Source of the DNA: Ptychodera flava
Taxonomy: Eukaryota > Hemichordata > Enteropneusta > Ptychoderidae
Assembly (NCBI RefSeq): GCF_041260155.1
Contig: NC_091932.1
Coordinates: forward strand, 32,560,338-32,624,337
Direction: 5' to 3'
Length of the DNA: 64,000 nt
In this document: in pieces, positions 10,346 to 59,754 of the stretch
Layout: the number at the start of each line of letters is the position of its first letter
How positions within the stretch are numbered: the first letter of the stretch is position 1
The notes under the pieces: model-generated
The model's database searches: none
Seen by the model: only the letters and a program-made list of their open reading frames with translations
Told to the model about the DNA's origin: nothing
Position numbers and translations under genes: made by a program

Positions 10346-10529
10346 CATTTGAAAGTGTGAGAACTACAAGGCTGTGTTAGGCTGCATTCAAAAAATATGG
10401 CGAGGGGGACTCTACAATTTCGGTCCCCGGTACCTTTTTGCATTTTCTAATTTTAAGGTCTGTTGGTAATTTAGTAAAAAAATGTTAGTAATAATAAACA
10501 AATCTACAATTTTCTATAAAAAGTGTAAG

Positions 10530-24168: not shown

Positions 24169-24640
24169 GTGGAGTGGGAATATGTTAGTAAAACGATAGT
24201 TTGGCCGTTTGAGGGCGCTCTAAATACCATGTACATGTATGAGTGTGACTTGACAGAGACTTTGAATATTAATTGGGATAACATTAAAAAGTCTTTGTTC
24301 CAGCTTTTAAATTCAGATAAAATAGTCAGCAATGTGGTAAATGACCTAAACTGGAAGGTGGTGTATCATAGAGATTTAGTCACAGAAAGTTTGGCAAAAA
24401 TTTTCAAAGTTAGTGATGGGAAATGCCACATCTGTGGGGACGAAGAGACCATTGAACATGCAATTTTTGATTGCAGATATGCAAACGAACCATGGGATAA
24501 ATGCAGATTGTTCTTATCACTTAAAAAAAATGTCAGTAACTGGAGCAGACATTGATGATTCAATCTCAGAAATAATATTTAGTACTTCTTATGTTGAATA
24601 CACTAGCTGGAATATACGAAACTCTGTGTTTTGATAAGAT
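24169..24640 (+). mobile_element. LINE RT C-terminal zinc-knuckle fragment
   Basis: A 128-codon plus-strand frame (24169-24555) contains DLNWKVVYHRDLVTES, then KCHICGDEETIEHAIFDC and a Trp-containing tail (PWDKC). This C-x2-C-x7-H-x4-C pattern is the zf-RVT-like end of L1/Jockey-type polyproteins. A second frame continues with VEYTSWNIRN (compare ...YIW..RN), so a frameshift separates them. The upstream RT is absent, suggesting a 5'-truncated insertion. Confidence 0.75.
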
Positions 24641-25144: not shown

Positions 25145-25150
25145 TTTATT
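25145..25150 (-). promoter_or_regulatory. Candidate poly(A) signal of the mosaic lectin gene
   Basis: TTTATT on the plus strand gives AATAAA on the gene strand, about 400 nt beyond the stop codon. It is the nearest AATAAA noticed downstream; use is not proven. Confidence 0.35.
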
Positions 25151-25547: not shown

Positions 25548-25828
25548 TCAGTATTGATCAAGCTCAAAATATTGAAAGCCGTGTTCATAGATAAAATCTT
25601 CTCCTTCTACATCGTACATCGAGTCACTGAGTTCACAGAGATACCTTCCCCCTGACTCGCGCTTCATGTTCACTGACACGCATCCGCTTGTCGCCAAACA
25701 GCTTGAAGTACACTCCAGGGCGTTGCGCTCGGTGGATGACGAGATGACGTGATTGTTGAGGGCGTGATTCGGCACACGAGGATGGACAAACACAGAGAAA
25801 TGACCAGGACCAATATCTTTGGGTTCAG
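25548..25828 (-). other. Lectin gene exon 47: PAN/apple-like C-terminal domain and stop
   Basis: [20 protein letters not shown] and [17 protein letters not shown] show the C..C....C.S.N.......CEL pattern of PAN/apple domains. The chain ends FELDQY then TGA. No hydrophobic anchor or GPI-like tail follows. Confidence 0.85.
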
Positions 25829-26257
25829 CTGTGAAGTGAAGATATAAAATATCGTATATCAGGCAAACTACCTAAAATAACTGAAAATTATTGAGTGTCC
25901 TGATTTCTCAGATTACTCTTTGTAAAGTGTTATTGTGATGGTCATGCAAATTGAAACTACATATTTTTGTTAGTATCAAAAAACAGGCTTATCAAGCGCA
26001 CTTACATAGACATTTGTATGTGACTTCCAAATATTTGAAAATCCCCGGACAAGGTTCGTGGTTGACGTAGAAGGACCATTGTATCGGAACAGGGCAGCTG
26101 TTGCGGTTCGTACAGAGACCGCGGACTGTTGGTAAAACCTCAGTTGTAACACAATCTGTTCTCGATGCCATCGCAGTTACTCCACTTCGAGAGGCACACA
26201 CTGTGTTGCCTGGGGAATACAAAAAGATTAAATCATTTGTGAGCACAAGTGTAATTG

Positions 26258-26306
<49 letters not shown>

Positions 26307-29300
26307 AGAAACAGCACAGTCTCCTTCGGTCCAACAAATAAGACAATAATAACGATGACCTGTATGGTATCTGATATACATTACCTTCTGTTCGTCCGTA
26401 GTTGGCATCAGTAACTCTGACAAGATAGCCAACTGGGCATGATAGTAACAGGTCATCCTGATCTTCGCACGAGTAAAGTGAAAGGTCACCATGCGGGCGG
26501 GTATCTGTAGAATGCAACATTTGTAGAGATGATTGCGTCGCCTTGCTTACATGTACTTGGTCGCTATATCCCTATATATCATTGCTTTCGATTGGCTCTG
26601 ATACCTGGTGCAATGCCTCCGCTTTCGGATGGTTTCCTTCACTAACTTCGTTCAAGAGAAATACGCAAAAATAATGTAGATGACCAATGCATGTCGCAGA
26701 CATATCAGATTATATCTGTCTGTACATTTCTGAAAAGTCACAAACACGCTTCAAAATACATTGCCCTAAGATTATGTTTTTTATTATCTTAAACCTGAAT
26801 TGAAACATTTAATTACTAGTATTATACATGTGCATGCCATAGATAAAGGAAACTGAACAAGTTTTGATAAAACTGCTCTTGCTATCAAGTGAACGGATAA
26901 TACAAAGATACACATAATCCAAACACCACACAGCCAAGAGACGTATTGTACTTGTAAGCTATCACAAAAGCTGTTGTTTTAATGGATCCAATATTGTTAT
27001 TTATACGTCTGCATGCCGGAACAAAGCTTTTTGGCGCCGGTTATCTAGCTTTTGTGAGAAGACAGCGGTCTTTATCGACATGTTTCACTCGCTGTATAGC
27101 TACAGCAAATTAATCGTGTGCTAACCTGTGCAGTCGAAGATGACGCGAAGATATTTTGAAACACCAGGACAGGGATCCCCGCCTAAGATGCTGGCATCAA
27201 CCTGGATTTAAATTGGAAAGTCCAAAATTACAAAAATGATAACAGAATGGTGTTAATCAATTAAGAAGATGCAGTTTTAATTCATCCCACAACACTTGGC
27301 AATATATTCGCGGCTATGAATGCATTTTGACAAATTACAAGTGGTACCTACATGCACTTGTTTGCTGTCATAGCATACCTGAAAACGCGAATAAAGGTAA
27401 AGAAATCGCTCTCTGACATTGATGTGATTAATACCGATTAACTTTGTCCAGAAAGAATTACGTCCCGTATTCTAGCAAGGACTCTGCTAGCGGACTTACC
27501 TGAATTGTGCAGTGTCGTTTTCCATCACAGTATTGCTTAACAAGGGTTAGAGTGTTAGCATTGACACAAGTTGTACTACTTGTATTATACAGGTCAATTC
27601 TGCAGAGGGTACTGCTCGTACGACCGTAGTTGGCATCTGCGATGACTATATACTCGTCATCATTACACCCAAAAGACAGAACGTTTTCATATTCCTCGCA
27701 GGCATAGACTTCTAGGCTACCATTGTTTATTAGTTGATCTGCAAATATAAGGAGGTATTTAGTATACGATGAACTTTATGAGACGATGTTGTTTAACACG
27801 TACTTAAACCAAGACATGCATAGATGGAACTTAATTTTAATGGCGTTTACAAGTTCTGACTTTAAACATTTACTGCGCATTTCAACGAATGTTACACATC
27901 AATGCTTCATATTCATTCATTCATTCATTCATTCTAATTCAAATTTTACTATTTGATCAAACCTGCAGTATTGACGACAGAAACATACCACTGCATGTAA
28001 ACTCCACATCCAAGTACTTCTCTTCGTCCTGTCCACATGGTAGTTCCTCCAAGGCGGAGTCACTAACTCCAACGCTGCAACTATGTTTAGAGTTGCACTG
28101 ATCTTGAATAACGTCTGATACGTCTATTGAGGAACAGTTGTAGTCTGAAATAAAGTAAAATCAGCAATTTAGAAGCTCGTACGATTAGGTAATCACATCT
28201 ACCTATTGAACTAAAATCACTTAGTTATATGTTTGTTTGGTATATCATAATATGTAAAATTATTGGCAAGTCACTCATGTCACACGATGATAAAGCCATC
28301 GACTTCTTGCAATAATCATGCTAAAGTTCAGTTTAGGTTTATAATATTATACGTTCCTTTAGAAATGAACTCACCACTGTACACTTGAACTTCACACACT
28401 TGTAGTGACGTCGTTCTATGGAGAACTTGTAGGCTAACATAAAGAGCTTGGATGGCACCACCACAATATACATCGACCGTAGTGTTAGCTTCCATCAAAC
28501 TTATGACGTCACCGCAACGATCGTTTTCATCAATAGATGAATGCTTCCCTGCCCTCACTTCCAAACCATTCATGCTGTGACCTTCAAGGTTTCAAGTTAT
28601 AAACATGTTTGTGGATATTGAATCAGAGTCTTTGCAAACGTATACCACACACTGAGCGGCCTCCCTTTTAAGTGTATCCTTTTAAAAGTTGTTTTAAAAT
28701 GTTTCAAATGACAAATATTTCAGTTTCATTTCGCGTTAAAGTTGTGGCAAGGCATATCCACTACACTGAGAATGAAATACTGTTAGTCCAGACTATATGA
28801 TCTGTTTATTGGAAAGTTATATGCAAACATTTTTGCTGTGTGCTGTACATAGCAGTGGAGCAAACAGCATACAGAGTACAACTGTAAGTTGTTGTGGGGG
28901 ACTGACTGTATATAGGTGGTTTGCACCTGTACCCAGTCACCAAATCCTCAGCGGACTCTTTTTTCAGTTGTTTACTGCGGATAAATCTTAATAGCTAAAA
29001 ATCAATAAAAAAATAAACTGATACAAGATGTATTAGGGCATGTTCTCACCATTCAGGTTTTCCGGAATTGTGATCGCCACCCTTGTCACAGGGTAAAGGT
29101 CACCAAGATTAACCTTCCACCAGGGCTGCCATTCAGTCTGTGTCCTAATACATGTATGGTCAGTCCAATAGCTTGATGTAAATCCATCCACTGCTTTATC
29201 TGCTGATGTCGACCCATCGTATACACTGCTCTGGGTTGCCGGTTTTCCCTTTGCAATATTGTCTGCTGGAATGCCCACGTTTACATTGTTATTTCAAGTG

Positions 29301-32300
29301 AAATAGTTTTATTGACTTGTTCACAAACCAACTTGTTCATAAGTTTCACTTAAAATCAAATGAGTAAACTAGTCAAGTATTTTTTAATATGTCTTGCCCT
29401 GCTATTAGTTGGTACATCATAAAAAGAACAGCTTTATATGAGCATACAAATATACGACATACTGAGCACCTTCATGCTTTGAGATTCAACCATTTCTCCT
29501 ATGCAATGTGATTCTTCATGATAACTGTCTGATATTTACCTCCGTACAAGTCACTTCTATTATTGGACTCTTTCAGCCAATACCAGACAATTCCAGGGCT
29601 TTCTTCAAATGACTTTATCCAGTGTGATGATGTCTGACTACAATTTGGACAAATCACCGCTCCCCACTGACTATCACTGTCAGAAGACGTCGTCAAGATG
29701 ACTGAGCTCCCGTCACTGCTTATCCATGGCAGGTAATCTTGCAGACTTGTATTCGTAGTTGTCCAGTTTCCGAAGCGTTCTGTCAGGGTACTGGCTTGAG
29801 GTGAGCTTCCCGTCAAGGTGGAGTTATCGGACGCTTTCCAGATACCTCCCCAGTAACCGCGGCTACTGGCTTCCAGACGATACTGAGAAAGTGGAACATA
29901 GTGTGGAATAGGATAAATAACTAGTATTGGTTTTCTCTCAAGGAGATTAATAGCAAGGTCATGTGATCAATGTTTGAGTCTTTGGCTGCAAAGATGAATG
30001 GCTTCCACGTCCTATCATGTGTATAATGATGTTGCAGTTGGTTTTTGTCAAATCTTTCAAACATTGTTTATTATAAACTGTATTTCTAGTTTATAAACTA
30101 TACCTTCCTTATCAGATAGATATGAGGTTATAAGCAACGCAATTTTAATCGCTCCAAAATATGGAAACATTTTTTCCGTTATGTTTATCGTTTTTAGGTT
30201 TTTAGGGTTTTGTTTGCTTCCTCTGATTTTTTTCTGACAGATTCCTATTCCCTGTTTTCAAAGGATCATAATTTTTGGGTCTTGTGGAAATTACGGTGAC
30301 GGTTCAAAGAATGGTTTCATTTTACTCTCAAGTTTAAAATGAACACTGCTTAAGATCGTACGTGATTAAAGAAATCGACTCTCACAAAGTACAACAATCT
30401 TCAGGAAGCCCTTGGTTTTTCACATTTTCCATTTGTTTGCGTAACGTGTTAAATCGATCTACACCGGCATTGCATTAAAAGGAATGTATATCAATGGGTA
30501 CCATAAATGTGTTTCCTGTTCCAGCAGCTGCAATTATGGAGTCCCCGTAAGTCAGAATCGAGTAATCACTGTCCATTGAGGGCGTATCAGAGTTATGCAG
30601 CAAAACTGAGTATTCTGCCCACGCTGATTGGTTGACAGTTGTCAGCAGTAAAGTCCAACCACCTCCATTCCTCGTCATATCACAGTACACATTCATCAGT
30701 TGACCTTCGACCTCGATTTCATAAATCCCATCATTAACAGCCTCACCAAGCGACCGCCTCTCGATAAAGTGTTGTTGGCAGGATAATTTGGGGCTTGACA
30801 TGCTGTAGCTTTCTAAAGAAAAAGAGTTTCCACACTGTAAGTTCCTGTAACACCACGCATGCATGACTACAGTATAAAACCTTTGCATTATAGGAAATTG
30901 GAAAAATATCAGCCAAAACCTCAGCAAACTCTGTCTTACCAAAACCGCTTTACATTCTTACCTTTCACCACAGAGCACTCTTTCGAATAGCTATCAGAAA
31001 CCTGGTAAGTTGCTTTGGTTACATTTATGAAGTGGTTCTGTCCTGTGCAGGCAAATGCAAGGGTGTGTCCACTGCAGCTTCTGCCAGATTTAGACGCCGT
31101 TCTTGAACCTGCGATGATGAAAGTAAACGTGATATCGCCTGTTGAGAACACAATGATGGACCCTAGGTCCTGAAAACGTTTGCATTCATGCTTCAACTTG
31201 CTAAAAGCATCGACTGTTGTAGGTTTAAGAAAAAAAGAATCTGGTTGATGAATGCCAACAATTACCTTTCTATTATCATTTATCGAAATAGCTTAATAGT
31301 AAAATTAGTATATAATTAAGACATACCTCTGATTTCGGCAATGCACGAAAAGGTGATGGTCAGGTATTTGTATACACCAGAACACGGGTCAGCCAAGTCG
31401 TTCTTTATATGCGACGCAACATCGATCACACACTCCTTGCTATTGTCACACAGCAAAGTAACAATGTTCATGGCTTCAGAGCCGCTTCCGTTACAGTTGT
31501 CGTCATAGTTGTGCCCAGGATAGCTGGCTGGACATACATAGCCACCCTCACTACGTCCATAGGTGGCATTTATCACATTGATGTAACCATGGCCACACGT
31601 TATCTCTATCTGTTCATCTTCACACGCTACGGCTGTCTGTTGAAGGTCTAGATCTAGACAAAAGTGGAAAGACCCTATGCATTAGGTAGACAGAAATATG
31701 TTTGAACGAACATTCATATCTTCACCTGGACAAAGTAACCAAAATCATGTTTGCAACAATTTTAGTCTGAAATGCTTCTCATGAAAATATTTATTTCAGA
31801 GTAACATTTAAAATACTAAATTTGTTAATTTGCCAACAAGGCATTTTCTGTCTTCTCCAGTTTTTTTATTTGTTCAAAATATATGAAGAAAGTAATCCGT
31901 GTATCCAGTGAACATCACTTGGTAGAAAACATGCTGAATTCGGTAATCATCTGAAAAAATATTGACGTGCAATATTCCACCAATAAATCTCGATATGAAC
32001 ATCATGTGCGCCCTCACCATAATGCACTTGAACTTCACAAAGACTCAAAGCATCATTGGTGTGAATGCTGACGTAGCGTCCAGACAATGGTGTCAGGCAG
32101 TAAACATCTATCACACTGCTTGAAGAATTAATGACGCCACAAAGTGCATTCTGGGATATATTGGTATCCACACCGATCCTTATGGAGGAACCAACGAGGT
32201 GCTGGCCTAAAACAGGACAATACTGAAAACATCAGTGAAACCGCAATGATTTAAACAAAACATTCGATTCGGTTCAGTTCAGTACAATTTTTCCTGGTCA

Positions 32301-32825
32301 AAGATATATTTTAGCTAAAGGAAACTGACTACAATTCTCATGAGGTGGAACATCAATTGATTTTTACATTTTTGAAAGACATTTTAAAGTTGATGCAGGC
32401 CTAAGTTATAATATCTTACCACAGCAATCATTCCCATTTATTATGGTTACCCTGGTGACATCAAAAGCGACGCCGAGATCAATCATCAACCACAGCTCGC
32501 TACCTGTCGTCTGATTGGTTTGATTTGTCGAAATACACGTGTTGGGCAGCCATGTTGATGACGTCACGCCATCGACTACAACAGACGGATCAGTTCCAGC
32601 TACTGGAGAGAAGCTCATAGAAACCTGTCTGTAGAGGGCCCAATTTCCTCCTACAAAGACGAGTTGAAAGAGAACATGTAAGCTTATTGTAACAAAAACT
32701 AAAACACGAATTTACATCACATGTGGAATAAACTTTTAAGTTTAAATTCATAGAAAGTTAAAAATAGCAAGTGAAACAGTACTTGTCACATTGTAAATAT
32801 ATTGTTTGATTGGTTGGTCGGTTGG

Positions 32826-32873
<48 letters not shown>

Positions 32874-35800
32874 GAGATAGAAAGATCACGGATATTGGTC
32901 TTAAACTATACCGTCTTTGGACGATGGACAGTAAGCTGAGTTGTAAACTGTAAATTAAGACAGTGATAACAGATAAAGAGATAAAATGAACAAGACACGA
33001 TATGCATGACGATGTTTTTCCGTCTTCAAAAAGCAGATGATTTTCTTAAAATCTGATATAATTTTGTTTTACATTTATATCATCCTCATATTGATCAAGT
33101 GTAACATTCCGTTACGTACCGAACGATTCACAGGTGTAGGCTATGTCGATATACTTGGCAACGAATGGACACGGATCGATGGTGACGTCATAGAATAAAG
33201 TGTTCAGCATGCATGCATGTTTGTTGTCACAATTCTGTTGGATGATTGCCAAGAATGAATCGTTGTCACTGAGCGTACAATTTGTTTCATTCTGTAGATG
33301 CTGACCCTCAGTGTAGCACAGACCTAAATAAACATAAATAATATTTAATGAACAATGACAATATCATTGAAAATTCAGTGGTGTGGTAAATTCATAAATT
33401 TAGATATTTAAGAAGACTGAAGCAATAGACAGTTAAAGTTGTGAAAGAAACAACATCAGCAGTAGTAAAATATTGATAGGAAACAAACTGAAGACCAAGA
33501 TGGGTTAAAGGTTGTTTCAAAGGTATTGGCCATACTGTGCTCTACAACTGGTACCTGCCATGTATCTCCGATATTTTAATTTATAATGTGAAGTGATCAC
33601 ATCATAAAGGCATATGTCGTCATTTGTTCTCCTTGCAAGAAAGGTATTTGAATGCACAATGGACGTTAGATGTCATGACAAGATCAGTTTGGTTTCCTCA
33701 GTATCATGTCAGAAAATTATTGCATATAGCACCAACGGCAACGAAAATAATAATTATGTCAGATTGCCTGCAAATATCCCATAAATAATATTTGACAGAG
33801 TCATAGGGTTAGAGTTTAGGAAAATCACTGTGAGTGTTATCCTACCCATCACTCACCTTTCTCTGATCTACCATAAGCGGCGCTGTGTACCTTGATGTAA
33901 TGATTGTCTTGACAGCCGAACTCAATAGTTTCATTATCACAACCAATAACTTGATGGACTCGATGAGCTGGTAGGTCATCTTTGACACACAATGGTAATT
34001 TTAAATTGAAAGGGTGTGAGTCAATTTCATTGTTAGTATGCAGTAGAGAAGATTTTTGAATAAACTTACAAGATCTGAAAATGTACTAAACTGTAAACAT
34101 CATGCATATTGTTTTGATGACTATTTTACCAAATATTTGTGTCATCTGCGCACCGTTAAAATTGTGTATCGTGAAATACTGGTACGAGATCATAAATGAC
34201 AAATGGCAATATTCGGTGTCTAAAACATTTGATTTCCAATCCAGGGAGAATGCCGAATTTCATGTTCTGCGGAAAGCATGAGCAGTGTATGGAGTCATTA
34301 TAGGTGCTGATGAATATTGATGAGCACGAATATTAATAAGCATGAATAATAAATGAACGAATATATTAGATTAATTTGTATTTATTATGATGAGAGTGAA
34401 AAGCGAATGAGTAAATATATTATACAGATGAACTGACATTAAATTCACCCTAAGGTGTTAATGAGGTATTAAATATGTTGGTAATATTAAATAGGGGGTA
34501 GGTACCAAAAGGTTTAGGAATATTTTATCATATTGAGGCGTATGGCACTATCACATAACTGTAAGTAAAAGTTAATCGTCTCTTACTTGTACACCTATAA
34601 TTGACGGCTAGATACTTATGAATACCGGCACAAGAAGCAGAACCATCGTAGTTTAGGTCAATGTCCAAAAACGTTTCGGAGACATGAAGTTCGCAGTTTC
34701 GTTTGTTTCCACATTGTCGAGACAATCGATCCAACAAGGCGTCCTCATTGTATGTACAGTCTGTATAAAATGATAACCAAACAACATGAATGAGAACATT
34801 GTTGACCTAGAAAACGCAGTACATGTGAGTTATATACTTAAGCTTACATACACCCTTCCCAATCTCTGGTTCAGGCATTAGTGGATATGTGAAGTGCTAG
34901 CTAATACTTTGTCAATTTTCATTTCTCCATGGAAATTTTTATCAAGTGGATAAATTTCCTATTAGATAAATCTTGTGAGAACGTAGAACTTTTGAATTGT
35001 TTGAAATACTATGGCAACGCGGAGGAACATGTAACATTATTTCAGGTGGTACACAATGTGCCACGTCTATCATGATATTACCAGTATTATATGTTTACGA
35101 TAATTGTGCATTATATCGTTTGTAATTTTTTTAATAACCGAAATATACCGCTTACTAAGTGTGTGGTCATCACCAGCAGTGGTACACACTTCACTTCGAT
35201 GGCTACCATAGAATGCCCTTGTGATTTCTACGTATAATCCTCTTGGACAGCTGAATTTTAAGACATCGCCTTCACAACCTGTGACACTTCCATCTTCTTC
35301 AGTAGCTGCAAATCCTGAATTAAACCATGAACACAAAAGCTAAAAATTCGTAATAACGAAAGGGTCAGTATTTACATGTGCTTTGCTTTACTTTCAGATA
35401 TAGGAATTCGAGTCACGGTATGTTTGGATTTAGAGAAGTCAACAGTATATTTTCAGAGTGAACTCCATCTGGTGTTAAAAATGTGCCTGAAATCGCAAAT
35501 AGGCCAAAAATGAAAATTGCAATGCATTGCAATTGATGCATAACAATTAAAAATCAAAATACTGGGTCACGGAAGGCAAATCAAAGTATGTTTTTACATT
35601 TAAGAAAGCTAAGGACACTTCCATTTATAAGCACCATTCTGAAAACTTTCAGCCTCTCTCGAGATACCCCGTCAACTGTCGTGAATATCACTATTAATTT
35701 ATAATTTCTTTCAGGCATACAGAAGAAATGCATCTGTAACATACCTTCCTGTTCATGAAATGTCTTTGAGACGAACCCATTCTCCAAATCACCGACTACG

Positions 35801-50800: not shown

Positions 50801-53800
50801 GATAAAGACTGAGCCAATATTTTTGCGATTTAGCTGTCAGTATATTTTTGCAACGTTTTCTGAGGCAATAAGCGACTTAAGCTGGTGTCAATGACAAGAT
50901 AAAAAGTAACATTTGTTGAACCTGGGAAGTACACTCGATTTTGAATCGCTTCAGAGGTAAACCTCTTTATATACTACTCTTGATTTCTGTTCAACTGTTT
51001 AAACCATGATATTAAAATTAACCGTTCGGAATGGCATTATGTCTTTTCATCGATATAAGTTTACGTTCGTAATAATCCATTTACCGTTATCTAGACCTAA
51101 ATGGTTTCAACCGTGACAGACCGATATTCGGAGTGACATGCACGCAATTCGCAATACATTATTTCAGCCTATATAAAAGGTGCATAATTATGATATAAAT
51201 TACCCTACGCAAAAACACTGAACCAAAGACATACCTACCGTGCGGAATGTAGCATCCGTAAAGTTCAAGGCGACAGCTTGCATGGTTGACCCACTCCACT
51301 GGGTGTATACGAACTGAAGTGATGTTCTCCAGAGGGCCGATGGAAGATGCGATCAGTTGTGAAGCATTGAAGGTGCCTGCAAGGATCTTTCACAAGACAC
51401 AGGTACTATCTACGTTAGAATTAGTGTTCAGCTTGAGAAATACTTCAACGCCTTGATCAGAAAATACGACATTCAAAGAACCACTTGATCTAGATACAGA
51501 ATTTTCCAGATTGAGAGTAGCAATCATGACCATTTATAACCATAAAACATACCCTCAGTCGTGTATTTCCAAGCTAAAGTAGTGCGCGTCTGGGAAATGA
51601 CACTAACACTTTCATTCATACTCGCTCAAGGAAACTTTAAATCAATCGTCTTTCGTTATGAGAAGCGGAAATCACGTGTCATTCAGCAAACTTGTTGAAT
51701 ATGAAATATCTCGAATTTACCGGTATTTAAATTAAAAATGGCCGTAATTTTCTGATTCTCGATGACGACTTAATTTTCTATACATCTTTCCAAATATAAA
51801 TAAGTACACGTAAGCTTTTGAAAAGAAGGGAATAAGATTTCGAAAGTTCTGTCCTCATGGCGCACTCTGCCTTAAATAGGGCAACGCAGTGATCTTTCAA
51901 ATACGCAAATATAACACATGGGTAAATCTGCAGAATGAAACGTATACCCTTTTGTGCAGAAAAACTGGAAACGATGTGAGTTGTTTAAAAAGGAACCGAA
52001 TGGGTTTCCAAAGTTATCAAATACAGTTTAAAGTACTCCATAGTACATTTACTTGACGTCGTTTTGGCGTGCAACACTTGCATAATCAAGAAAGAACAGA
52101 ATATTTGCATAGGCGCCATGTTGTTCAAAAAGTGAGAGCAGCTTCAAAAACACAGTACCTGGGTTTGATTGTCCTGAGTGTAATTTCTCCAGATGTGATC
52201 GCCACCACTTGTGTAAGATATCCTATATTTTGTAACAAATTGATTTCCATGCGTTCTCCCTTGCAACCCGATCTGGGTTATTTTTGCGGGTGTTGTAAGG
52301 TCAACTTGTAACCACGGTTCATCATCGCCATCAGCCGCCATCCAGCACTTGTCTCCGACAGCGTTAGGTCGCCCCCACCAGGCCAACCAGGTAAGACTGT
52401 CGTTTCCATAGTTACTGCTACTTGTCATTTGGTTATTTTCAATACGAAAATCTTCAATTCCCAGTGCTTGGTAACACTCTACAGAAATTTATAAATTGAA
52501 CTTATTTCATATAGATGAATTGTGGTGCGAGAACAGTAAGTGGGGACACCACTCACTCGAAAATAGGGGTAAAGTTGAATACCTGTACCCTTCATTTTTT
52601 CTGCACAATAACCTGAAATACCACTCAGTAGTAATGCAACGATATGGTCTGAAGTTGCTTTCGCAGAGTATCGATTCAAACACACTAATCGACCGATAAA
52701 GACCGTGATTTTGCATATTCCGAAGTCGTGCTCCGTCCTAAGCGATATTTTGGATCTAAATAACTGATGCAATTGATGACATAATTCTTTTTATATCATG
52801 TTTATATTTTCATATTGTCACACACATATTTAGAATGGGTTTGTGTATTGCTAGTTACCATCGCAAGGCAAGTCAGCGTCACACAGCATGTAATCTGTAT
52901 CCTCTCCAACACACGCCGCTCCACCATACTGCGGTACGGGATCGCTGCATTGTCGCTGGCGGCTCTGAACACCACCGCTGCCGCAATCTACTGAACAATT
53001 CGACCAGCTTGACCACGCACTCCAACCACCATCAACTAAAAAATTGACAACAACGGGACAAGATATCAGCAATGTAATTAACTTGAACAGCACACTATGT
53101 CCACTAAAATTTGTAGTGCGTACTGTTTAATTTCTACAACCACGGCTGTTTAACGCTTATTTTAAGCAGTTAAACATTTTCTACATCTATATTCTCTCGT
53201 CATTTTAGTTGTTTAGGCCTATGCCACTTTACCGAAATAATTACTGTAAAAGGTAACGTATTATGTCAGGGTCTATTGGAAAATAAAGGGTAATTTCAGT
53301 ACAGACTCTGGCTAATTCACACTTACCTGGACAACTTTGGTTATTGCACGTTTGTGTTTCGCTGTAGTCACCGACGCATTCCAGTCCACCATGTTCAGGT
53401 ATAGGGTTACTGCAATAGCGTGATCGGGTCTGATTGCCGCCCTCACACGACACTGTGCATTCGCTCCATGGAGTCCAAGAACTCCACGACCCATTCACTG
53501 TGTGATGACACACAGGTATCATGTCAGAATATCTCAAAACAACAGAATCTTCATTATTTAAACTACAAGGTCAATTCTTGGTGTAAGAGATTACCAGTAA
53601 CTTGAGATAATATGAACAATGTTTGTCTTATTTTGACAAGAGAAACACTTGCAAAATGTGTTCTTTGACACTAATTCAGTTAAACTTACAGAATCGCCGT
53701 GACGCCAGAATCTTTCCACGTTTAAAGTCCTAGAAACTGAAATTGACCTTAGTATTAAAAGCAGTTGCTCTGTATTTGGCTTGTGAACAACTATGTGTAC

Positions 53801-56800
53801 AGTGTACATTTGTCGCATACAATGTTCTTGTTTACGATTGAATTTACGTCCGGACGTAAATTTGATTTTCTTTTCAATAATAAGAAAGCTGACCATACAA
53901 TGATAGGTTGTGTTGACCAGACAAATATCAGGTATTTTGATGTTCTTTTCAGAGTAGATCAAGAAATTGTAGTCGTTACACAGAAAAAATGATGGGAAGG
54001 TTGTTTAAGGTTACGATAACTGGATTTTTAATTTATGATAATGTAAACGATTGTGACGTTGAAGTTTTTTATGTTTTAGCGGTTATCATCCGATCGAATT
54101 ATTGCACACAAAACTCACAAAAACATCATGTTTCTGTTTTGTCATCATACATTCATATACTGAATAAGTATTGTTTTTGCTTGTCTGTGGTTTACTTTAA
54201 GATATTTTTATATTTTCTAGCGTGCAGTTGGTTATTTACCGGCAGGGCATGGTTCTGTGTCCAAGCCACAAACGATAGTTTCGTTTTCAAATCCGCTGCA
54301 TTCGTTGCCGCCATATTGAGGTGTTGGGTTGGTACAACTTCTGCTTCTGACCATCACGCCCCCAACGTGACTTCCGTTAGTCGATATTGTGTAACACGTC
54401 ACGGAGCAGGTCGAATTCTGCCAGTCAGTCCAACTACCGTTAACTGTGATAGTTAAAAATGAGTCAATAAGTGACATCCATGTAGGTAAACCCGCAGGTT
54501 CTGTCCAAGAATATTCGGTTGTCACCTACATTCCGCTTTTCTTGAAAGTGGAAGAACATTGCCTTCTATTTCAAAAAAAGATTACCTGCATCTCAATTAA
54601 AACATCTTTCTTATCAAGAAAATTATAAGACTCTTTAACTTTGCGAAAAGATTAAATTCAATGTCTTGGGCTTCCTATAAAACGCAGTACTGATAGCCTG
54701 CTTACGATATACAGTTTGTGACAAATAGAGAATGAATGTGTAGTGTGTAGTGTCCGCACGGATTTCATGATAGTGTCCATACCTGGTGGACATGGTTCCA
54801 AACTGCACACCTTGGTCTGATTGTTGGCGCCCCCACACTGTTGACCTTCTAATAGAGGCGATGGATTGGAACATAGACGTGATCGAGTCTGGGTTCCATT
54901 GCTACAGCTTGCACTACAGTCAGTCCAGTTACTCCACGATGACAAGCCACCGTCCACTGTTAGATAATAAGGACATGTCAATCAAGACAAATTGTTTGGG
55001 TCTTTTAGTTTCTAAAATTTACCCATGATTTTGAATCGGACTACATGGCATTTGAATGTTATGAAAAGGGAGTCTATAATATAGGATATTATTTCTGTGT
55101 ATTTGCAGCCCATGTTATCCAGGAATATTCCCGCCTTTGGAAGCGGGAGGAACGAAATCAGAAATGGAATTTGGAAAAGTTAGCAGTAATGGGGTTCGAT
55201 CTCTGTGACATTTGGAGTAAGGTTTCAGTAGAACCTGAATATCAGAGAAAATTTACCGATTCTTGAAGTCATATTACAAAGAATTTTTGTAATCGATTGA
55301 TACCCGAAGGCCTACCGGAATTGATTTCACAGATGAACCCTGTAGCCAGTGTCGCTTCTCCGTTTGTCCATTTCCAGCGATTGTCCTCGGAGTCATAGGT
55401 CAACAGTATCATTCCGCCGGTGGCGTTACCATAGTAACCATCTATCCATGGATATGACATATTTGGCGAATTGGCGTCATCAGAGAAATAAACAATGCCG
55501 TTTGTGGAGTTGACGGACATACCGGTCAGAAATATGAGTGACGTGTCATTCTGTAAATGTAAAAAAAAAACTTATACATCAATCCCAAGCGTCACTTGTC
55601 TCCAGAAAGACATTGTAAGTAATTTTACTCGTCAACTAAGGCATGGTTGTGGAGGGACTATAGCTGAGATAATCACATACAGTAACATTGCGATTTTCGT
55701 ATTCTTTTGTTTCTGTCATTATTTGAGTCATTCTAGTGTCGTTCTTCAACAACGCCACCCCACCCCACCCAGTCCTTTCGATTTACTGAAATATTGCATA
55801 AAAACTTTGTCATGGATAAACATCTCTGCATTTTACGCTCAAACTTGGAATCCAACTTGGTGACAAAAAATTACAAAAGTCAAAAAACGAGAGTTCATAG
55901 AGGTAAAAGTCCGGCACATCCTGTTATTTGTTCTCAACTTTGGGGAGGCATTATAATACTTTAATGAATTTAAGAAAGTTGAATATATCATCCTTTTTAC
56001 CTGAAGAAGTTCTTCAAGATATGTTTGCTCCTTGGCATCGTCTATATACACCACGTGACCAATGTCTTGGCTGCAGTTTGAAGCAGCAGCCGACAAATTA
56101 CCATTGAAGGAACGTTCTATTTTATAGCAGGTGTGCAGAGCAGGGATGTAGCCAGATGGACAGTTAACTGTGTGCAATAGACAACATTAAGATTCGTTGA
56201 TCAGCTTGTTTCAGATTATATCTTGCTATCGACTTAATTACAAATGTTATGTGCCAACGGACAACACATGGAAAGTTTGATAAATTAAAAAGGAACTTTC
56301 CGAAACTTTTATGTCGGGCCCGCACTGTTTATACCTGTTTGGCGTACTCGCGCAACGCATGTAAATCATGGGTGCTCAGAATTGCACTGATCTTTTCAAA
56401 GGGTGATCCGGATACCGTACTCTCTATCAGAAATCACACAACAGTGTTTCACGCACCATTCACTTTCTGTGACAGTATTTGCTTTATTTGAGTATGGAAC
56501 CGGCAGCACTTATGATATGGATAAATCATGTCACAGTACGACAAAAACTCTTTCGCTAAAAGACGCCTTCTGATGAGCATACCTGTAAACTGATCACACA
56601 ATGTACCTTCATAGCCATCTAGACACGTGCAGCTGTAGCCGTTGATGTGGTCTATACAACTTGCACCGTTTTGACAATCATGTGACGCGCACTCGTCTGT
56701 GTCGATTTCACAATCAGTACCTGATAATTATGAAGAAATCAGGCATTCAATTTATATGAATGACTATGTAAAGATTCATTTTAAAAGTCATTCATCATCA

Positions 56801-56815
56801 TTATCATCATCATCG

Positions 56816-56858
<43 letters not shown>

Positions 56859-59754
56859 GTCACCATCGTTAATTGCACTCACCACAATTACAAGAGCATA
56901 CACACTGTACATGTGTGTGGAATACAGTCGCTGCGGTCGATAGTGCGACGTTCAAATTACATTACCTTGGTAACCATCTGTACAGTTACATGTGTATTGA
57001 TTGACACCGTCTGTACAGCTGCCACCGTGTTGGCATGGTGATGACAGACACTCGTCTATGTCAGTTAGACATTGACTTCCCGAGTATCCCGGCGGACAGC
57101 TACAGTTATACTGTCCACTCACGGCGAGATTGGTACAGTTACCGTTGTTCATGCAGGGGTTACTCCAACAATTATCTAAATATGAAAACAAAGTTTCGCT
57201 TGAATGTAAAATTAAGAGTTCCAAAGAAACAAGTGTTTTGTGATGTCGTTGTGCACTTCATTAACGTAGCTTTTACCATGTTGCTTAAATAAATATATTC
57301 AAAGACAATGGGCATCTGGCGTCCCATTCTGTGCGTTCTTCACTGAAGTCATACATTTTAGTTTGGGAATCACAAAGTCAAGCTCTACATTGGGACATGT
57401 GGTGAAAACAGTGTTCCCGTAATATTTGTATAGGACGGTTTTGTATGTAATACACTCACTTGTACAGCCATACAGTTCGAGTCTGAGACATGGGTGAAGG
57501 TGATACTCTAGGATTTGGACACGGAGATGTCTAGTCGTTATCTCGGGGGATAATTCGTTGAAAACCGGTACCATGGATTGGTTGTTTCCGGTGAAAACCT
57601 TAAATAAAAAAGGTTTGTTTTTCTCGTCATCATCTTTTAAGTCCTGCATTCTTTGAGTCAATAAATATTCAGAACTTAATGGTTACATTTTCTCTCAATG
57701 CTATGATAATGGCACCTATGCCGGCGCTTCGGTTTAGTTGGTAAAGAGTTACTCTGACGACAATCTGAAATCATTTGAATGTACCTTGGTCATTCCACCT
57801 GTTTCGTACTGTACCCAGGGTCCACTGCTGGAATTGGAATGCTCCAGAATGTAAGACGTCACGTATGCGTCATACTTTTCGTTTCCCTGCGTTGTCATAT
57901 TGGTAATCACCTTGTCCTCGATGAAATCGATCTGTAAGAAGTGAAACAGAAAATTCAAAGCATCAAAGAACACCAAAATACTGTTCAAGAGATGTAATCA
58001 ACCACTCTGATAATCTAAATATAGTTCTCAAAATTCATTTTTCCCATTATAAGAAATCATTCTTCTATAGATCTACATGGCAAATCTGATAGAATAGGTA
58101 ATTTAATCCTGGCCAAAATTACGAAGAATCTACAGTCGGCAATTGATATAAAGGTTATTATTTGAGTTGTAGGGATAACCTTTATTTCGATTACAAGAAA
58201 ACAGAAAACTATTCAGGAAATTCGAGTAGGCCCGGTACCGTTAAGATACGGTTATCTTTTTTATTTTATTCAAGAGGCCTTGTTTGTTTGTACGATTCAT
58301 TGCTGATAAAGCACAGAACAATTGCCTCCTTAGGCTAATGAACAAAGTTTGGTTTTAGGTTTTGATATATTGCTTTCCGTTGATCTTCTCTATCTTTTTT
58401 CCCTTTGACGCACGCGTGATCCTGCTGTGACGATGATCTCGCGTCACGTTACGTTCTTCCTAAAATTTACATTGGAACTTTTGAACAACTGTTATCACTG
58501 TTAGAAACATTGACGTAATCAGCCAATAGAAATAGGTTTCGTCCTCCATTAAAGCCTCATTTGCATAATCGAATTTTCCTCTTATTCATTCAAATATATT
58601 TGTACTAATTACAGCATTACAACAATTACTAATATTGGAGGAATGGATAACAGTTCGCTATAAAAAATCAAATTACTTTAAAAGTAAATAAGGCTTTCAT
58701 GTACAAACCAAAGCGATTGTTATTCTCTGGTGCCTGAATATTCGATGTTATTCTTTAAAAAGGCTGAACATGTCGTTATCTGTAGAAGAAGTAGGCAGCT
58801 TTCGTATTTTTTAAGATTACATTAAATATTCTGTTAAAAGCTATCTATCTTGCAAACTATGTAACGTAAAAGTACTCGCCAGGCTGTAGTGCGACATGCA
58901 CGGAAAATGAATTAAACGGCTCCTTAATCGCTAGTATCGCCTATTACGTTTGTGTTCAAGACGCCCTGGACTCACTAGCAACTTACCGGTAGTAAAATAA
59001 AAAGCATGAAACACATAATATTCTGCCTATTTGTATTGGGAAATAATTCTTTTGAAAAATGCATTTTCCTCTGGACAAAATCAGTATGAATTCGAATATG
59101 TATTGCTTAGGCACGAGTATATGAAAAAAGCTGTAATAAAACGTGCAATACAGATTTAAAACTTTATTACATTCTGTCCAGTTGCGATATATTTACTTTT
59201 TTACATCGTGTCATGGTATCTATTTCTTTATTGAGAGAGCGAAAGGGGGACAGAGGTAGGCAGACAATGAATTTTTAGTCAACGCCTCACCTGAACATAT
59301 TCGTCTATCGATACAGACTCGGAGTCTGCGCACCAAGATCCATCAGAATCGAGGCGAATGTTATACTTTGATATGCCATCAATGAATGCGTTAGAACTCC
59401 CGCCAAAATATGACGACATGCTTATCCGGTTGTCTTCAACTGCTGGCGCGTGCGCCGTTCCAATCAGAGGCTCATTGCAAACTACAACGAGGAGAGAAAT
59501 ATAGGTTATCAGAAATTGTGATCATATATATTACTTTTATATATTACTTTTCCTAAGAGGTCAGAAAAGCATAATATTATGTTTAGAAAATCATGAAAGT
59601 CTGGACAAAAATATGGAAAGTTGTCGATTAACTGATAGACTAAGTATAATACGTTGAAGTCGTCTTCATTCGAATGAGCTTTTCCACAGTAGTTGGTGAT
59701 GGCAACTGCTACAGCCACCACACTAATCATTTTTAAAACTGATAGTACGGTCAT
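25548..59754 (-). CDS. Giant secreted mosaic lectin (SUEL, FTP, discoidin, C-type lectin, TSP1, EGF, Ig, fibrinogen-like, PAN)
   Basis: Forty-seven exons were placed by eye, each with AG/GT borders. All 46 junctions keep frame and the lengths sum to 9246 nt: 3081 residues plus TGA at 25548-25550. The start ATG (59752-59754) has an in-frame TAA directly before it and begins a signal peptide ([18 protein letters not shown]). Domain order by residue: discoidin 23-181; EGFx3 182-297; C-type lectin 298-431; TSP1x4 432-673; discoidin 674-829, 830-959 (short), 960-1132; C-type lectin 1133-1267; SUELx2 1268-1470; C-type lectin 1471-1597; discoidin 1598-1748; Ig 1749-1846; SUELx2 1847-2066; FTP 2067-2206; SUEL 2207-2315; SUEL N-half 2316-2364; fibrinogen-like 2365-2582; FTP 2583-2723; SUEL C-half 2724-2775; SUELx2 2776-2988; PAN-like 2989-3081. 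No transmembrane segment is visible, so it is inferred to be secreted or matrix. The role is unknown; binding of glycans or microbes is a family-based guess. The join of exon 1 to exon 2 is the weakest. Separate adjacent genes are possible but are argued against by the unbroken phase chain and single stop. Confidence 0.85.
26006..27738 (-). other. Lectin gene exons 43-46: SUEL domains 7 and 8
   Basis: Domain 7: exons 27500-27738 and 27126-27201 ([28 protein letters not shown]), late phase-0 split. Domain 8: exons 26385-26504 and 26006-26209 ([24 protein letters not shown]), phase-1 split. Both keep YGR; domain 7 keeps DPC. A (TC)n microsatellite lies in the intron inside domain 8. Confidence 0.9.
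26260..26303. repeat. (TC)n microsatellite in a lectin gene intron
   Basis: Pure CT dinucleotides between exons 45 and 46. The Glu/Arg-repeat open frames here are artefacts. Confidence 0.95.
27911..27934. repeat. (ATTC)n microsatellite
   Basis: Six tandem ATTC units in the intron between exons 42 and 43. Confidence 0.9.
27989..28144 (-). other. Lectin gene exon 42: C-terminal half of SUEL domain 6
   Basis: [25 protein letters not shown], and KYLDVEFTC. This is a SUEL second half with no first half beside it. It complements exon 37 at the same split point as SUEL 3. Confidence 0.8.
28375..29265 (-). other. Lectin gene exons 40-41: fucolectin-type (FTP) domain 2
   Basis: Exons 29050-29265 and 28375-28581. 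[39 protein letters not shown] and [19 protein letters not shown], then [12 protein letters not shown]. The ligand His (DHT) is kept, but the Arg-x-Asp segment is lost (PENLNGG). The acceptor was set by frame to GTCACAGCATG; the next AG would give a stop. Confidence 0.88.
29540..30812 (-). other. Lectin gene exons 38-39: fibrinogen-like domain
   Basis: Exons 30502-30812 and 29540-29882. [20 protein letters not shown] and [16 protein letters not shown] match the start of fibrinogen-related domains. The second exon ([29 protein letters not shown]) is less typical, resembling invertebrate fibrinogen/intelectin-like C-terminal regions. Confidence 0.75.
30962..31108 (-). other. Lectin gene exon 37: N-terminal half of SUEL domain 6
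   Basis: [37 protein letters not shown]. It stops where the phase-1 intron lies in SUEL 3, and the next coding exon is fibrinogen-like, not the lectin's second half. The 150 bp between the exons holds no candidate second half. The missing half is exon 42. Confidence 0.8.
31327..31653 (-). other. Lectin gene exon 36: SUEL domain 5 (single exon)
   Basis: [31 protein letters not shown] and [16 protein letters not shown]: both YGR and DPC..KYL are intact. It is one of the most canonical copies in the protein. Confidence 0.9.
32018..32650 (-). other. Lectin gene exons 34-35: fucolectin-type (FTP) domain 1
   Basis: Exons 32420-32650 and 32018-32206. [34 protein letters not shown] and INGNDCC, then [10 protein letters not shown] and [10 protein letters not shown], follow the eel-fucolectin/tachylectin-4 layout. 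The family motif His...Arg-x-Asp is not kept (N-T and N-G-N-D here). Confidence 0.87.
32825..32873. repeat. (GATT)n microsatellite
   Basis: Twelve or so GATT units preceded by degenerate GGTTGGTT, in the intron between exons 33 and 34. Confidence 0.95.
33120..35314 (-). other. Lectin gene exons 30-33: SUEL domains 3 and 4
   Basis: Domain 3: exons 35156-35314 and 34587-34760, phase-1 split after [13 protein letters not shown]. It has YGS instead of YGR and ends [14 protein letters not shown]. Domain 4: exons 33857-33979 and 33120-33323, phase-1 split after AAYGRSEKG, ending [16 protein letters not shown]. Confidence 0.88.
35745..36038 (-). other. Lectin gene exon 29: immunoglobulin domain
   Basis: Single phase 1-1 exon. 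[20 protein letters not shown] and [12 protein letters not shown] give the two Cys, the core Trp and the DSGxYxC motif of an I-set Ig domain. Confidence 0.9.
36292..37211 (-). other. Lectin gene exons 27-28: discoidin domain 5
   Basis: Exons 36904-37211 and 36292-36436. [37 protein letters not shown] and ALRAEFYGC are the domain hallmarks. Confidence 0.9.
38967..39124. mobile_element. 158-bp near-perfect hairpin MITE, 10-bp target duplication (Mutator-like)
   Basis: The 63-bp arms are reverse complements with one mismatch. The short centre contains a further GCTGTCGC/GCGACAGC pair. Direct flanks GACTTCCTCC lie at 38957-38966 and 39125-39134. The outer end ATCTGATT..AATCAGAT is itself palindromic. 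A 9-11-bp duplication points to Mutator-like elements. It lies inside the 2.77-kb element, so it is younger than that insertion or was carried in with it. Confidence 0.9.
39470..40050 (-). mobile_element. Decayed LINE RT fragment inside the 2.77-kb element
   Basis: Minus-strand reading gives [20 protein letters not shown] and [17 protein letters not shown], then [32 protein letters not shown] and [14 protein letters not shown], the successive RT blocks of CR1/Jockey-like LINEs. Stops and frameshifts are present. It has no LINE ends of its own here. Confidence 0.85.
41030..43240. repeat. Complex tandem array of ACGTG / ATCGTG words with 471-473-bp higher-order repeat
   Basis: Built from 9-15-bp words (CCTAACGTGT, CCTATCGTGTATCGTGC, GTCTAAAATGTCTAACGTG, TATGTCATTTTAGG) in both orientations, so much of it is imperfect palindrome. 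The landmark GTCTCAAGATTCACGTGATG recurs at about 41603, 42076 and 42547. Open frames on both strands are repeat artefacts. It lies in lectin intron 25, beside the 2.77-kb element. Confidence 0.95.
44336..45457 (-). other. Lectin gene exons 23-24: SUEL domain 2
   Basis: Exons 45298-45457 and 44336-44496, split by a phase-2 intron. [23 protein letters not shown] and [19 protein letters not shown] are present, so both YGR and DPC are kept. The intron contains MITE family A copy 2 (45001-45212). Confidence 0.88.
45001..45212. mobile_element. MITE family A, copy 2 (212 bp)
   Basis: The ends are AACACGATTGGAAATAATTT and its inverted partner, flanked by ATTA at 44997-45000 and 45213-45216. The interior matches copy 1 without the Harbinger-like insert. 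It lies in the intron inside SUEL 2. Confidence 0.9.
45828..46115 (-). other. Lectin gene exon 22: SUEL domain 1 (single exon)
   Basis: It reads [20 protein letters not shown], then [12 protein letters not shown] and [18 protein letters not shown]. The rhamnose-site words YGR and DPC are replaced by WGH and SPC. Phase 1-1. Confidence 0.85.
46572..47235 (-). other. Lectin gene exons 20-21: C-type lectin-like domain 2
   Basis: Exons 47125-47235 and 46572-46865. [15 protein letters not shown] begins the domain; [26 protein letters not shown] and FNYICEM complete it. The EPN/QPD position reads HHP. Confidence 0.88.
47719..49083 (-). other. Lectin gene exons 17-19: discoidin domain 4
   Basis: Exons 48875-49083, 48306-48455 and 47719-47878. 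The start is [20 protein letters not shown] and the end is [12 protein letters not shown]. The three-exon layout (phases 1-0-0-1) equals that of discoidin 1, suggesting duplication. Confidence 0.85.
49572..50397 (-). other. Lectin gene exons 15-16: shortened discoidin domain 3
   Basis: Exons 50189-50397 and 49572-49752. The first begins [18 protein letters not shown], so it lacks most of the usual first strands before [16 protein letters not shown]. The end is VNVTVYGCP followed by a Pro/Ser linker. A duplicate of the exon 15 acceptor lies upstream at 50583-50775. Confidence 0.8.
50378..50775. repeat. About 204-bp tandem duplication spanning the exon 15 acceptor
   Basis: The blocks at about 50378-50576 and 50583-50775 align throughout (CCACATTCTGT.AAAATCACA, AAACGGCACGATGGACTG, TACCTGCGGC). 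The upstream copy, in gene sense, repeats the acceptor and the first codons of exon 15 (ECGGK versus ECGEK) and is followed by GCAG|GTTATT. Confidence 0.85.
51239..52478 (-). other. Lectin gene exons 13-14: discoidin domain 2
   Basis: Exons 52159-52478 and 51239-51386. They run from [14 protein letters not shown] through [20 protein letters not shown] to CRLELYGC. This is a full-length discoidin domain with an internal phase-0 intron. Confidence 0.9.
52859..54956 (-). other. Lectin gene exons 9-12: four TSP1 repeats
   Basis: Exons 54783-54956, 54240-54443, 53327-53497 and 52859-53035, one domain each, all phase 1-1. The motifs are [41 protein letters not shown] and [15 protein letters not shown]. 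Each carries the TRSR..C or QSRQRQC strand and a PC end. Repeat 2 has a longer insert after its first cysteines. Confidence 0.93.
55316..56167 (-). other. Lectin gene exons 7-8: C-type lectin-like domain 1
   Basis: Exons 56001-56167 and 55316-55550. The start is [18 protein letters not shown] and the end is RWKWTNG...TGFICEI. The Cys and WxW positions fit the fold, but no EPN or QPD sugar motif is present, so Ca-dependent sugar binding is doubtful. Confidence 0.8.
56583..57175 (-). other. Lectin gene exons 5-6: three EGF repeats
   Basis: Exons 56966-57175 and 56583-56720, both phase 1-1. The first EGF starts [13 protein letters not shown]. The second has the calcium-binding start [16 protein letters not shown]. 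The third has [16 protein letters not shown]. The second EGF crosses the exon junction (YQG|TDCEI). Confidence 0.9.
56792..56858. repeat. (CAT)n microsatellite
   Basis: TCATCA trinucleotide tract in the intron between exons 5 and 6. Confidence 0.95.
57460..59481 (-). other. Lectin gene exons 2-4: discoidin (F5/8C) domain 1
   Basis: Exons 59291-59481, 57785-57931 and 57460-57598. They begin [20 protein letters not shown] and end in the paired Cys motif LRLELYGCT. The phases are 1-0-0-1. Discoidin domains bind phospholipids, glycans or collagen; the ligand loops cannot be judged here. Confidence 0.85.
59688..59754 (-). other. Lectin gene exon 1: start codon and signal peptide
   Basis: Encodes 22 residues with a hydrophobic core VVAVAVAI and a likely cleavage shortly after. 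An in-frame TAA precedes the ATG. Exon 2 requires a phase-1 donor. The only suitable one is T|GTGGAA, a weak site, so the true donor or even the true first exon could differ. The open frame continues past it for about 60 codons. Confidence 0.55.

Follow-up and report, generated by a model that had tools for sequence, protein, structure and literature searches.

The SUEL (rhamnose-binding lectin) superfamily, whose domain is about 95 residues long with eight conserved cysteines, has multidomain members, and its architectures include TSP1, C-type lectin, F5/8C, VWD and PAN modules in the portion of PMC3269628 available to us. The Hydractinia rhamnospondins are secreted modular proteins of 726 residues with a serine-rich start, eight TSP1 domains and one C-terminal SUEL domain, and latrophilins and polycystin-1-like receptors carry an extracellular SUEL domain (PMC3269628, same portion). 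Lectin, F5/8C, EGF or TSP1 modules also occur, as far as excerpts of their descriptions go, in other secreted proteins of large size, namely the sea star footprint protein Sfp1, sea urchin nectin, flatworm Mlig-ap1/2 and the limpet adhesives; Sfp1 and Mlig-ap1 contain vWD and C8 domains, and nectin consists of six F5/8C domains. Snail FREP and CREP proteins combine Ig or C-type lectin domains with a fibrinogen-like domain in one protein (excerpt of PMC8878817).

Exon-shuffled extracellular lectin mosaics are already known as a type, and the window analysed here (64,000 nucleotides of Ptychodera flava DNA) holds one with an unusual arrangement. We put the probability at roughly 55% that a single gene, assembled by phase-1 exon shuffling, encodes a secreted mosaic that acts as a multivalent cross-linker and in which the sixth SUEL domain (SUEL 6) is discontinuous. 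The predicted product has eight SUEL domains, and the structural model of the one encoded by exon 36 matches CSL3, SUL-I and latrophilin lectin domains. It differs from multidomain members of the superfamily in its far larger number of modules and in one SUEL domain apparently interrupted by two others. No SUEL domain with inserted domains was found among the literature matches listed, nor by a term search in the available text of PMC13114784. With rhamnospondins it shares the combination of TSP1 and SUEL domains, but it has four TSP1 domains, eight SUEL domains and a C-terminal PAN domain; C-type lectin, F5/8C, Ig, fibrinogen-like (FBG) and PAN modules are absent from the account of rhamnospondins in the available portion of PMC3269628. 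In contrast to Sfp1 and Mlig-ap1, no vWD or C8 domain was detected and the modules follow another order; the vWD-C8-TIL set typical of Sfp1 or alpha-tectorin did not appear in Pfam searches of the product (E up to 0.05). Unlike in FREP and CREP proteins, the Ig and fibrinogen-like domains lie far apart, and the latter is not C-terminal and only partly recognisable. The product also differs from latrophilins and polycystin-1-like receptors, as Pfam gave no match to olfactomedin, GAIN, REJ or PLAT, and past the N-terminus no window resembled a transmembrane segment. This module order was not seen among the literature matches listed.

The gene occupies positions 25548-59754 on the minus strand, has introns throughout and is eukaryotic in character. 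It was modelled with a small hidden-Markov gene finder that learned its codon table iteratively from the window and used generic animal splice-site weights. The start (59754) and stop (25548) were fixed from a first-pass annotation, and the repeats in intron 25 were masked. With these settings, the minus strand gave 45 exons. Inspection of 27.5-26.0 kb revealed that a 499-nt exon running through a (GA)n repeat had hidden three exons (27201-27126, 26504-26385 and 26209-26006), which complete SUEL domains 7 and 8. The corrected model, whose exon count depends on separating exons by hand around the (GA)n repeat, has 47 exons and encodes 3,091 residues with one terminal stop. All 46 introns are bordered by GT-AG. 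Their phases 1/0/2 are distributed 35/10/1, and their median length is 419 nt, the longest (intron 25) measuring 5,665 nt. The first-pass annotation, which supplied the two ends, had likewise described 47 exons joined in frame to a single stop; its estimates of about 3,081 residues and about 27 modules are here revised to 3,091 and 28. The product has a mass of about 341 kDa, a pI of 4.6, 158 cysteines (5.1%) and 73 N-glycosylation sequons.

Run freely on the masked stretch 59754-25548, the gene finder predicted a single 45-exon gene with a score of 523.2. Lower scores came from the plus strand of this region (21.3) and from 30 unmasked dinucleotide shuffles (maximum 6.8), and the four runs on the two strands of each flank scored 0. 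Since the codon table had been trained on the gene itself, each exon was held out in turn; 46 of 47 scored as coding, the exception being exon 1 (−0.4). Unforced runs recovered the stop at 25548, and an AATAAA or ATTAAA signal is present at 25150, beyond the stop codon end of the gene. By these sequence criteria, the animal gene is real. An initial unforced model with three genes was rejected, because its exons included the transposon, the minisatellite, the (GA)n repeat and ORFs far out in the flanks. Elsewhere in the window, tandem arrays at 9451-10347 and 16993-20842, about 6.6 kb apart, consist mostly of 160-204 bp units that appear by eye to be related but in opposite orientation. A plus-strand ORF at 24157-24555, just downstream of the 3' end of the gene, matched zf-RVT (31.6 bits) and is probably a LINE remnant. 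Scans of the window for tRNAs and Rfam families gave no matches.

The exons encode the following features, listed from the N-terminus to the C-terminus:

59688..59754, minus strand: exon 1, weak candidate signal peptide with the most hydrophobic 19-residue window of the product (2.36)
57460..59481, minus strand: exons 2-4, F5/8C (discoidin) domain 1 (PF00754, 58.8 bits)
56583..57175, minus strand: exons 5-6, three EGF domains (PF00008, 77.3 bits in 3 stretches; EGF_CA in 2 stretches)
55316..56167, minus strand: exons 7-8, C-type lectin-like domain 1, divergent (PF00059, 24.1 bits, cut-off 22.6)
52859..54956, minus strand: exons 9-12 (54783-54956, 54240-54443, 53327-53497 and 52859-53035), four TSP1 domains, one per exon (PF00090, 138.9 bits in 3 stretches; PF19028 in 4 stretches)
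51239..52478, minus strand: exons 13-14, F5/8C domain 2 (PF00754, 62.0 bits)
49572..50397, minus strand: exons 15-16, F5/8C domain 3, N-terminally short (PF00754, 43.5 bits, profile 29-118 of 127)
47719..49083, minus strand: exons 17-19, F5/8C domain 4 (PF00754, 48.0 bits)
46572..47235, minus strand: exons 20-21, C-type lectin-like domain 2 (PF00059, 61.0 bits)
45828..46115, minus strand: exon 22, SUEL domain 1 (PF02140, 44.5 bits)
44336..45457, minus strand: exons 23-24, SUEL domain 2 (PF02140, 66.2 bits)
37667..43712, minus strand: exons 25-26 (43572-43712 and 37667-37906), C-type lectin-like domain 3, split by intron 25 (PF00059, 54.9 bits joined)
37907..43571, minus strand: intron 25, 5,665 nt, lengthened by an inverted-repeat element (38152-40920) plus a minisatellite at about 41072-43151
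36292..37211, minus strand: exons 27-28, F5/8C domain 5 (PF00754, 76.9 bits)
35745..36038, minus strand: exon 29, immunoglobulin domain (PF13927, 44.0 bits)
34587..35314, minus strand: exons 30-31, SUEL domain 3 (PF02140, 56.1 bits)
33120..33979, minus strand: exons 32-33, SUEL domain 4 (PF02140, 55.9 bits)
32018..32650, minus strand: exons 34-35, F-type-like (FTP) domain 1 (PF22633, 46.1 bits; PF00754, 29.3 bits)
31327..31653, minus strand: exon 36, SUEL domain 5, the whole domain in a single exon (PF02140, 51.1 bits)
30962..31138, minus strand: exon 37, putative N-terminal half of SUEL domain 6, Cys 1-3 (17.7 bits with an HMM of the gene's own SUEL domains)
29540..30812, minus strand: exons 38-39, fibrinogen-like domain inside SUEL 6, N-terminal end of intelectin/tenascin type (PF00147, 21.5 bits, cut-off 22)
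28375..29265, minus strand: exons 40-41, F-type-like (FTP) domain 2 inside SUEL 6 (PF22633, 42.9 bits; PF00754, 38.1 bits)
27989..28144, minus strand: exon 42, putative C-terminal half of SUEL domain 6, Cys 4-8 (PF02140, 36.5 bits, profile 33-80 of 80)
27126..27738, minus strand: exons 43-44, SUEL domain 7 (PF02140, 76.8 bits)
26006..26504, minus strand: exons 45-46 (26385-26504 and 26006-26209), SUEL domain 8 (PF02140, 64.0 bits)
25548..25828, minus strand: exon 47, PAN/apple domain and stop codon (PF00024, 22.4 bits alone and 19.1 in a longer piece, cut-off 21.4)

Pfam matches together with the exon structure gave 28 modules: five F5/8C, three EGF, three C-type lectin, four TSP1, eight SUEL, one Ig, two F-type-like, one fibrinogen-like and one PAN. 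The signal-like exon is followed by F5/8C, three EGF, C-type lectin, four TSP1, three F5/8C, C-type lectin and two SUEL domains. Next come C-type lectin, F5/8C, Ig, two SUEL, F-type-like, SUEL and the first half of SUEL 6, and then fibrinogen-like, F-type-like, the second half of SUEL 6, two SUEL domains, PAN and the stop. Pfam recovered SUEL, C-type lectin, F5/8C, TSP1, EGF, Ig, F-type-like and PAN domains, with the fibrinogen-like module just under the cut-off; no complete fibrinogen C-terminal domain scored above it (21.5 vs 22). The weak modules are the first C-type lectin, the fibrinogen-like and the PAN domain.

Phase-1 module borders are a mark of class 1-1 exon shuffling. All 26 boundaries between the 27 exon blocks are in phase 1, the blocks having been drawn by hand from the domain matches and the gene finder having required only a consistent frame, not a particular phase; inside the blocks, 8 of 19 introns are in phase 1. 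The uniform boundaries point to class 1-1 shuffling, and phase-1 exon shuffling is the best explanation for the exon structure of the predicted mosaic. Two of the eight SUEL domains (26006-46115) have no internal intron, and the other six are cut at differing alignment columns in phases 0, 1 and 2, so that a simple, recent tandem duplication does not seem to be their origin. For F5/8C domain 3, whose first half is missing, visual inspection of intron 14 in three frames showed no further exon. A 204-bp tandem duplication in this intron (50380-50789) spans the acceptor of exon 15 together with its first codons and creates a second potential acceptor.

A weakly supported part of the gene model is its beginning, where the first-pass annotation had placed a signal-peptide ATG. 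Exon 1 is hydrophobic and signal-like; the six most hydrophobic 19-residue windows of the product all begin at residues 1-6, and no transmembrane-like window occurs beyond the N-terminus in a hydrophobicity scan of the 3,091 residues. Against this start stand a poor donor (score −3.3), the non-coding held-out score and the unforced runs, which began at 62266 instead of 59754. Among the best 20 other starts with an ATG and a phase-1 donor up to 64 kb, the top scorers were unconvincing, as they fell near 63.7 kb in sequence of low complexity. Position 59754 was kept as a weak choice. Apart from this doubtful first exon, the earlier anatomy was accurate.

Intron 25 owes its length to a 2,769-nt inverted-repeat element and an adjoining minisatellite. 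The element (38152-40920) is transposon-like, with near-identical inverted arms (271 + 119 nt, the first 93 nt perfect), and is flanked by a 15-bp target duplication, CTCCGCGCAGGGCAT. This duplication is longer than those usual for common DNA transposons. An ORF within the element (39785-40057, minus strand) resembles a reverse-transcriptase fragment by eye; two ORFs from the element and one from the flank matched no Pfam family at E up to 0.01. The minisatellite (41072-43151) is made of units of about 117 bp with a higher-order period of 471 bp and has copies in both orientations.

The interrupted SUEL domain, which went unremarked in the first-pass annotation, is the most unusual part of the gene. 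SUEL 6 appears to be split between exon 37 (first half, 3 Cys) and exon 42 (second half, 5 Cys). The insert between them, exons 38-41, encodes 359 residues; its length of 1,077 nt is divisible by three, and both its borders are in phase 1. Exon 37 alone had no Pfam match. Joined to exon 42, it matched PF02140 with 43.4 bits over profile positions 3-80 of 80, and the join matched the solved SUEL lectin SUL-I along its length (E 1.8e-10). An HMM built from the other seven SUEL domains scored exon 37 at 17.7 bits, compared with at most 4.1 for non-SUEL exons, and gave 47.8 bits for the join. When the last 42 residues of exon 37 were shuffled, none of 500 joins reached this value (maximum 38.8), and exon 42 joined to the best non-SUEL exon scored 33.8 bits. 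Higher scores, up to 89.0 for the split domains, were obtained for exon 42 with the first halves of other SUEL domains, which belong to the HMM's own training set. In the uncut product of exons 37-42, the Pfam SUEL match begins at profile position 20 and takes in about 12 residues from the end of the F-type domain instead of reaching exon 37. The cysteines agree with a split domain: the seven contiguous SUEL domains have eight each (Pfam 44.5-76.8 bits, all above the cut-off), and the cysteine count is even in 25 of the 27 blocks and odd only in exons 37 and 42, which together contain the canonical eight. SUEL disulfides pair 1-3, 2-8, 4-7 and 5-6 (PMC3269628, available portion); the predicted 2-8 bridge would therefore tie the two halves together across the insert.

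In the alignment, the SUEL 6 junction, itself in phase 1, is offset by two columns from the phase-1 intron in SUEL 3. On the model of SUEL 5 (exon 36), it maps near residues 49-50, between a strand (22-34) and a helix (57-68), within the least confident block of the model (41-50, pLDDT 61). Of the inserted modules, the fibrinogen-like one matched only positions 15-51 of the 221 in PF00147, near the N-terminal end. Against the PDB, it matched XEEL/intelectin (E 3.7e-5) and tenascin-R (2.4e-4), with all 24 matches within its first 73 residues. A scan of viral contigs, which finds close relatives only, gave one pattern match and no close relative of the exon 37-42 product. We propose that the half with Cys 1-3 and the half with Cys 4-8 fold together, locked by the Cys2-Cys8 bridge, and that the 359-residue fibrinogen-like/F-type pair would form a side arm projecting from the loop that links strand 3 to helix 1. 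The simplest origin would be a 1-1 fibrinogen-like/F-type cassette shuffled into a phase-1 intron of a SUEL domain. Inserted domains are normally smaller than their hosts (PMC13114784, available text); here the relation is reversed, with a 359-residue pair in a domain of about 100 residues.

Further readings of SUEL 6 and of the whole locus have to be weighed beside the discontinuous domain in a single gene. Exons 37 and 42 might be relics of two SUEL domains that each lost one half. The SUEL domains on either side of the region make exon loss from two neighbours conceivable, and exon 37 is weak alone and SUEL 6 lacks the YGR and DPC motifs; such relics would, however, require two independent losses that left complementary halves, matching phase-1 borders and 3 + 5 = 8 cysteines, which makes this unlikely. 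Exons 38-41 might instead be an alternatively spliced cassette, with skipping yielding a continuous SUEL 6 and inclusion the fibrinogen-like/F-type arm. Skipping 1,077 nt with phase 1 on both sides restores the 43.4-bit SUEL match, but this frame-keeping is non-specific, because all internal blocks of the gene are phase 1-1, and we regard the cassette as rather improbable. Equally improbable in our estimate is a bolder combination, in which a Cys2-Cys8-bridged, discontinuous SUEL 6 carries an insert more than three times its size and splicing toggles the arm. As a frame-neutral 1-1 cassette, the insert could then switch the region between a plain SUEL tandem and one with a fibrinogen-like/F-type side arm, and since phase-1 introns flank every internal block, combinatorial splicing across the whole locus could generate recognition arrays. 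Finally, two adjacent genes could be present, with the end of the first and the start of the second both within 37.9-43.6 kb. Unmasked, the whole minus strand was indeed read as two genes (62266-38925 and 38605-25548; 29 and 21 exons; score 537.1), as it was with only the inverted-repeat element masked (62266-41097 and 37925-25548; 27 and 20 exons; score 531.1); these scores are not directly comparable with the 523.2 of the fully masked one-gene run, which was on a shorter stretch. Intron 25 is also by far the longest and contains four AATAAA/ATTAAA signals beside the transposon-like element. The break would, however, halve the third C-type lectin domain, which scores 54.9 bits when exons 25 and 26 are joined (PF00059, profile 2-105 of 107), against 31.6 bits for exon 26 alone (profile 37-105) and only a sub-threshold Xlink match (17.4 bits) for exon 25. 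Moreover, the extra exons around the break in the unforced split model fall in the minisatellite and the element. When the 46 introns were scanned for start exons resembling a signal peptide, a single candidate passed the thresholds; it lies in intron 2, within F5/8C domain 1, and not in intron 25. This is a partial test, and other weak starts are possible, because the candidate exon 1 itself fails the donor threshold. Since intron 25 lies inside a domain, a single gene is favoured, and two genes seem very unlikely.

The canonical calcium/sugar motifs of C-type lectins are EPN or QPD plus WND. None of these occurs in any of the three C-type lectin-like domains. The fucose motif of F-type lectins, HX24RXD (PMC5712786, excerpt), is absent from both F-type-like domains, although the fold family itself matches PF22633. 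In the SUEL domains, YGR, D/EPC and the KYL-type motif occur together in five of eight (2, 4, 5, 7 and 8), with EPC, KHL and KYI taken as variants; they are lost or altered in SUEL 1, 3 and 6. A YGR in SUEL 1 was not counted, as it lies at the C-terminal end and not at the motif position. SUEL 5, the one of the eight that was modelled, gave an AlphaFold2 structure with a pLDDT of 82.3 that agrees with the family's alpha/beta fold. Its top 12 Foldseek matches were all SUEL lectins or latrophilins (E 5.9e-7 to 2.2e-5; TM (query) 0.64-0.69), among them CSL3 (best), latrophilin and SUL-I. Galectin, R-type, H-type, C1q, jacalin and pentraxin models did not appear in the Pfam tables of the product. 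The description of the protein in the first-pass annotation as combining nearly all invertebrate lectin folds was thus too strong. The lectin claim is weaker than first stated because the C-type and F-type modules lack the canonical motifs. Sugar binding is plausible mainly for the SUEL array, and lectin activity, if any, most likely resides in SUEL 2, 4, 5, 7 and 8.

The exons, the reading frame, the identity of the modules and their phase-1 borders can be read from the sequence. The function is an inference from the modules, according to which the protein is probably a multivalent cross-linker. The multivalent secreted recognition (or adhesion) scaffold suggested earlier remains the best reading, with 28 extracellular-type modules and a signal-like start in its favour and the weak signal exon against it. 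The motif-keeping SUEL domains would recognise glycans of the rhamnose or galactose type, while F5/8C, TSP1, EGF and Ig modules would attach to further components of surfaces or matrix and keep the array spaced, and the degenerate C-type and F-type-like domains may serve as structural or protein-binding spacers. Two narrower versions of a cross-linker are each possible, but we hold them only tentatively. The protein may be a glue, used for temporary adhesion or in mucus, of the kind represented by sea star footprint proteins, nectin and limpet adhesive proteins. The combination of EGF, vWD, SUEL and F5/8C recurs in temporarily attaching animals (PMC10057474), limpet adhesive proteins contain C-type lectin-like, EGF, TSP1 and galactose-binding domains (PMC7333891), and the cysteine content of 5.1% is near the 5% reported for Sfp1 (PMC6410801), all according to excerpts of these sources. 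Yet no Pfam match to vWD, C8 or TIL (E up to 0.05) was found in the 20 pieces that cover the product, whereas both vWD and C8 are described for Sfp1 and Mlig-ap1, and the pI of 4.6, a value for the whole product and not by region, is unlike the strongly basic regions of Mlig-ap1. The other version, a soluble innate-immune molecule aggregating microbes like rhamnospondins or humoral SUEL lectins, is just as tentative. Rhamnospondins, which are secreted and combine eight TSP1 domains with SUEL, are predicted to act in immune recognition (PMC3269628, available portion), and the sugar-site motifs are kept in five of the eight SUEL domains here; the C-type and F-type domains without canonical sugar motifs speak against it, and a scaffold of the matrix or cell surface would account just as well for the size and for the presence of F5/8C, Ig and EGF modules.

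The gene clearly illustrates how phase-1 exon shuffling can build a giant extracellular lectin mosaic. SUEL 6 suggests that this shuffling has also acted inside a domain, near the phase-1 intron site of a sister SUEL domain. If its halves pair, the domain would be a natural test of whether a lectin rich in disulfides can accommodate a large insert, and of cassette splicing.
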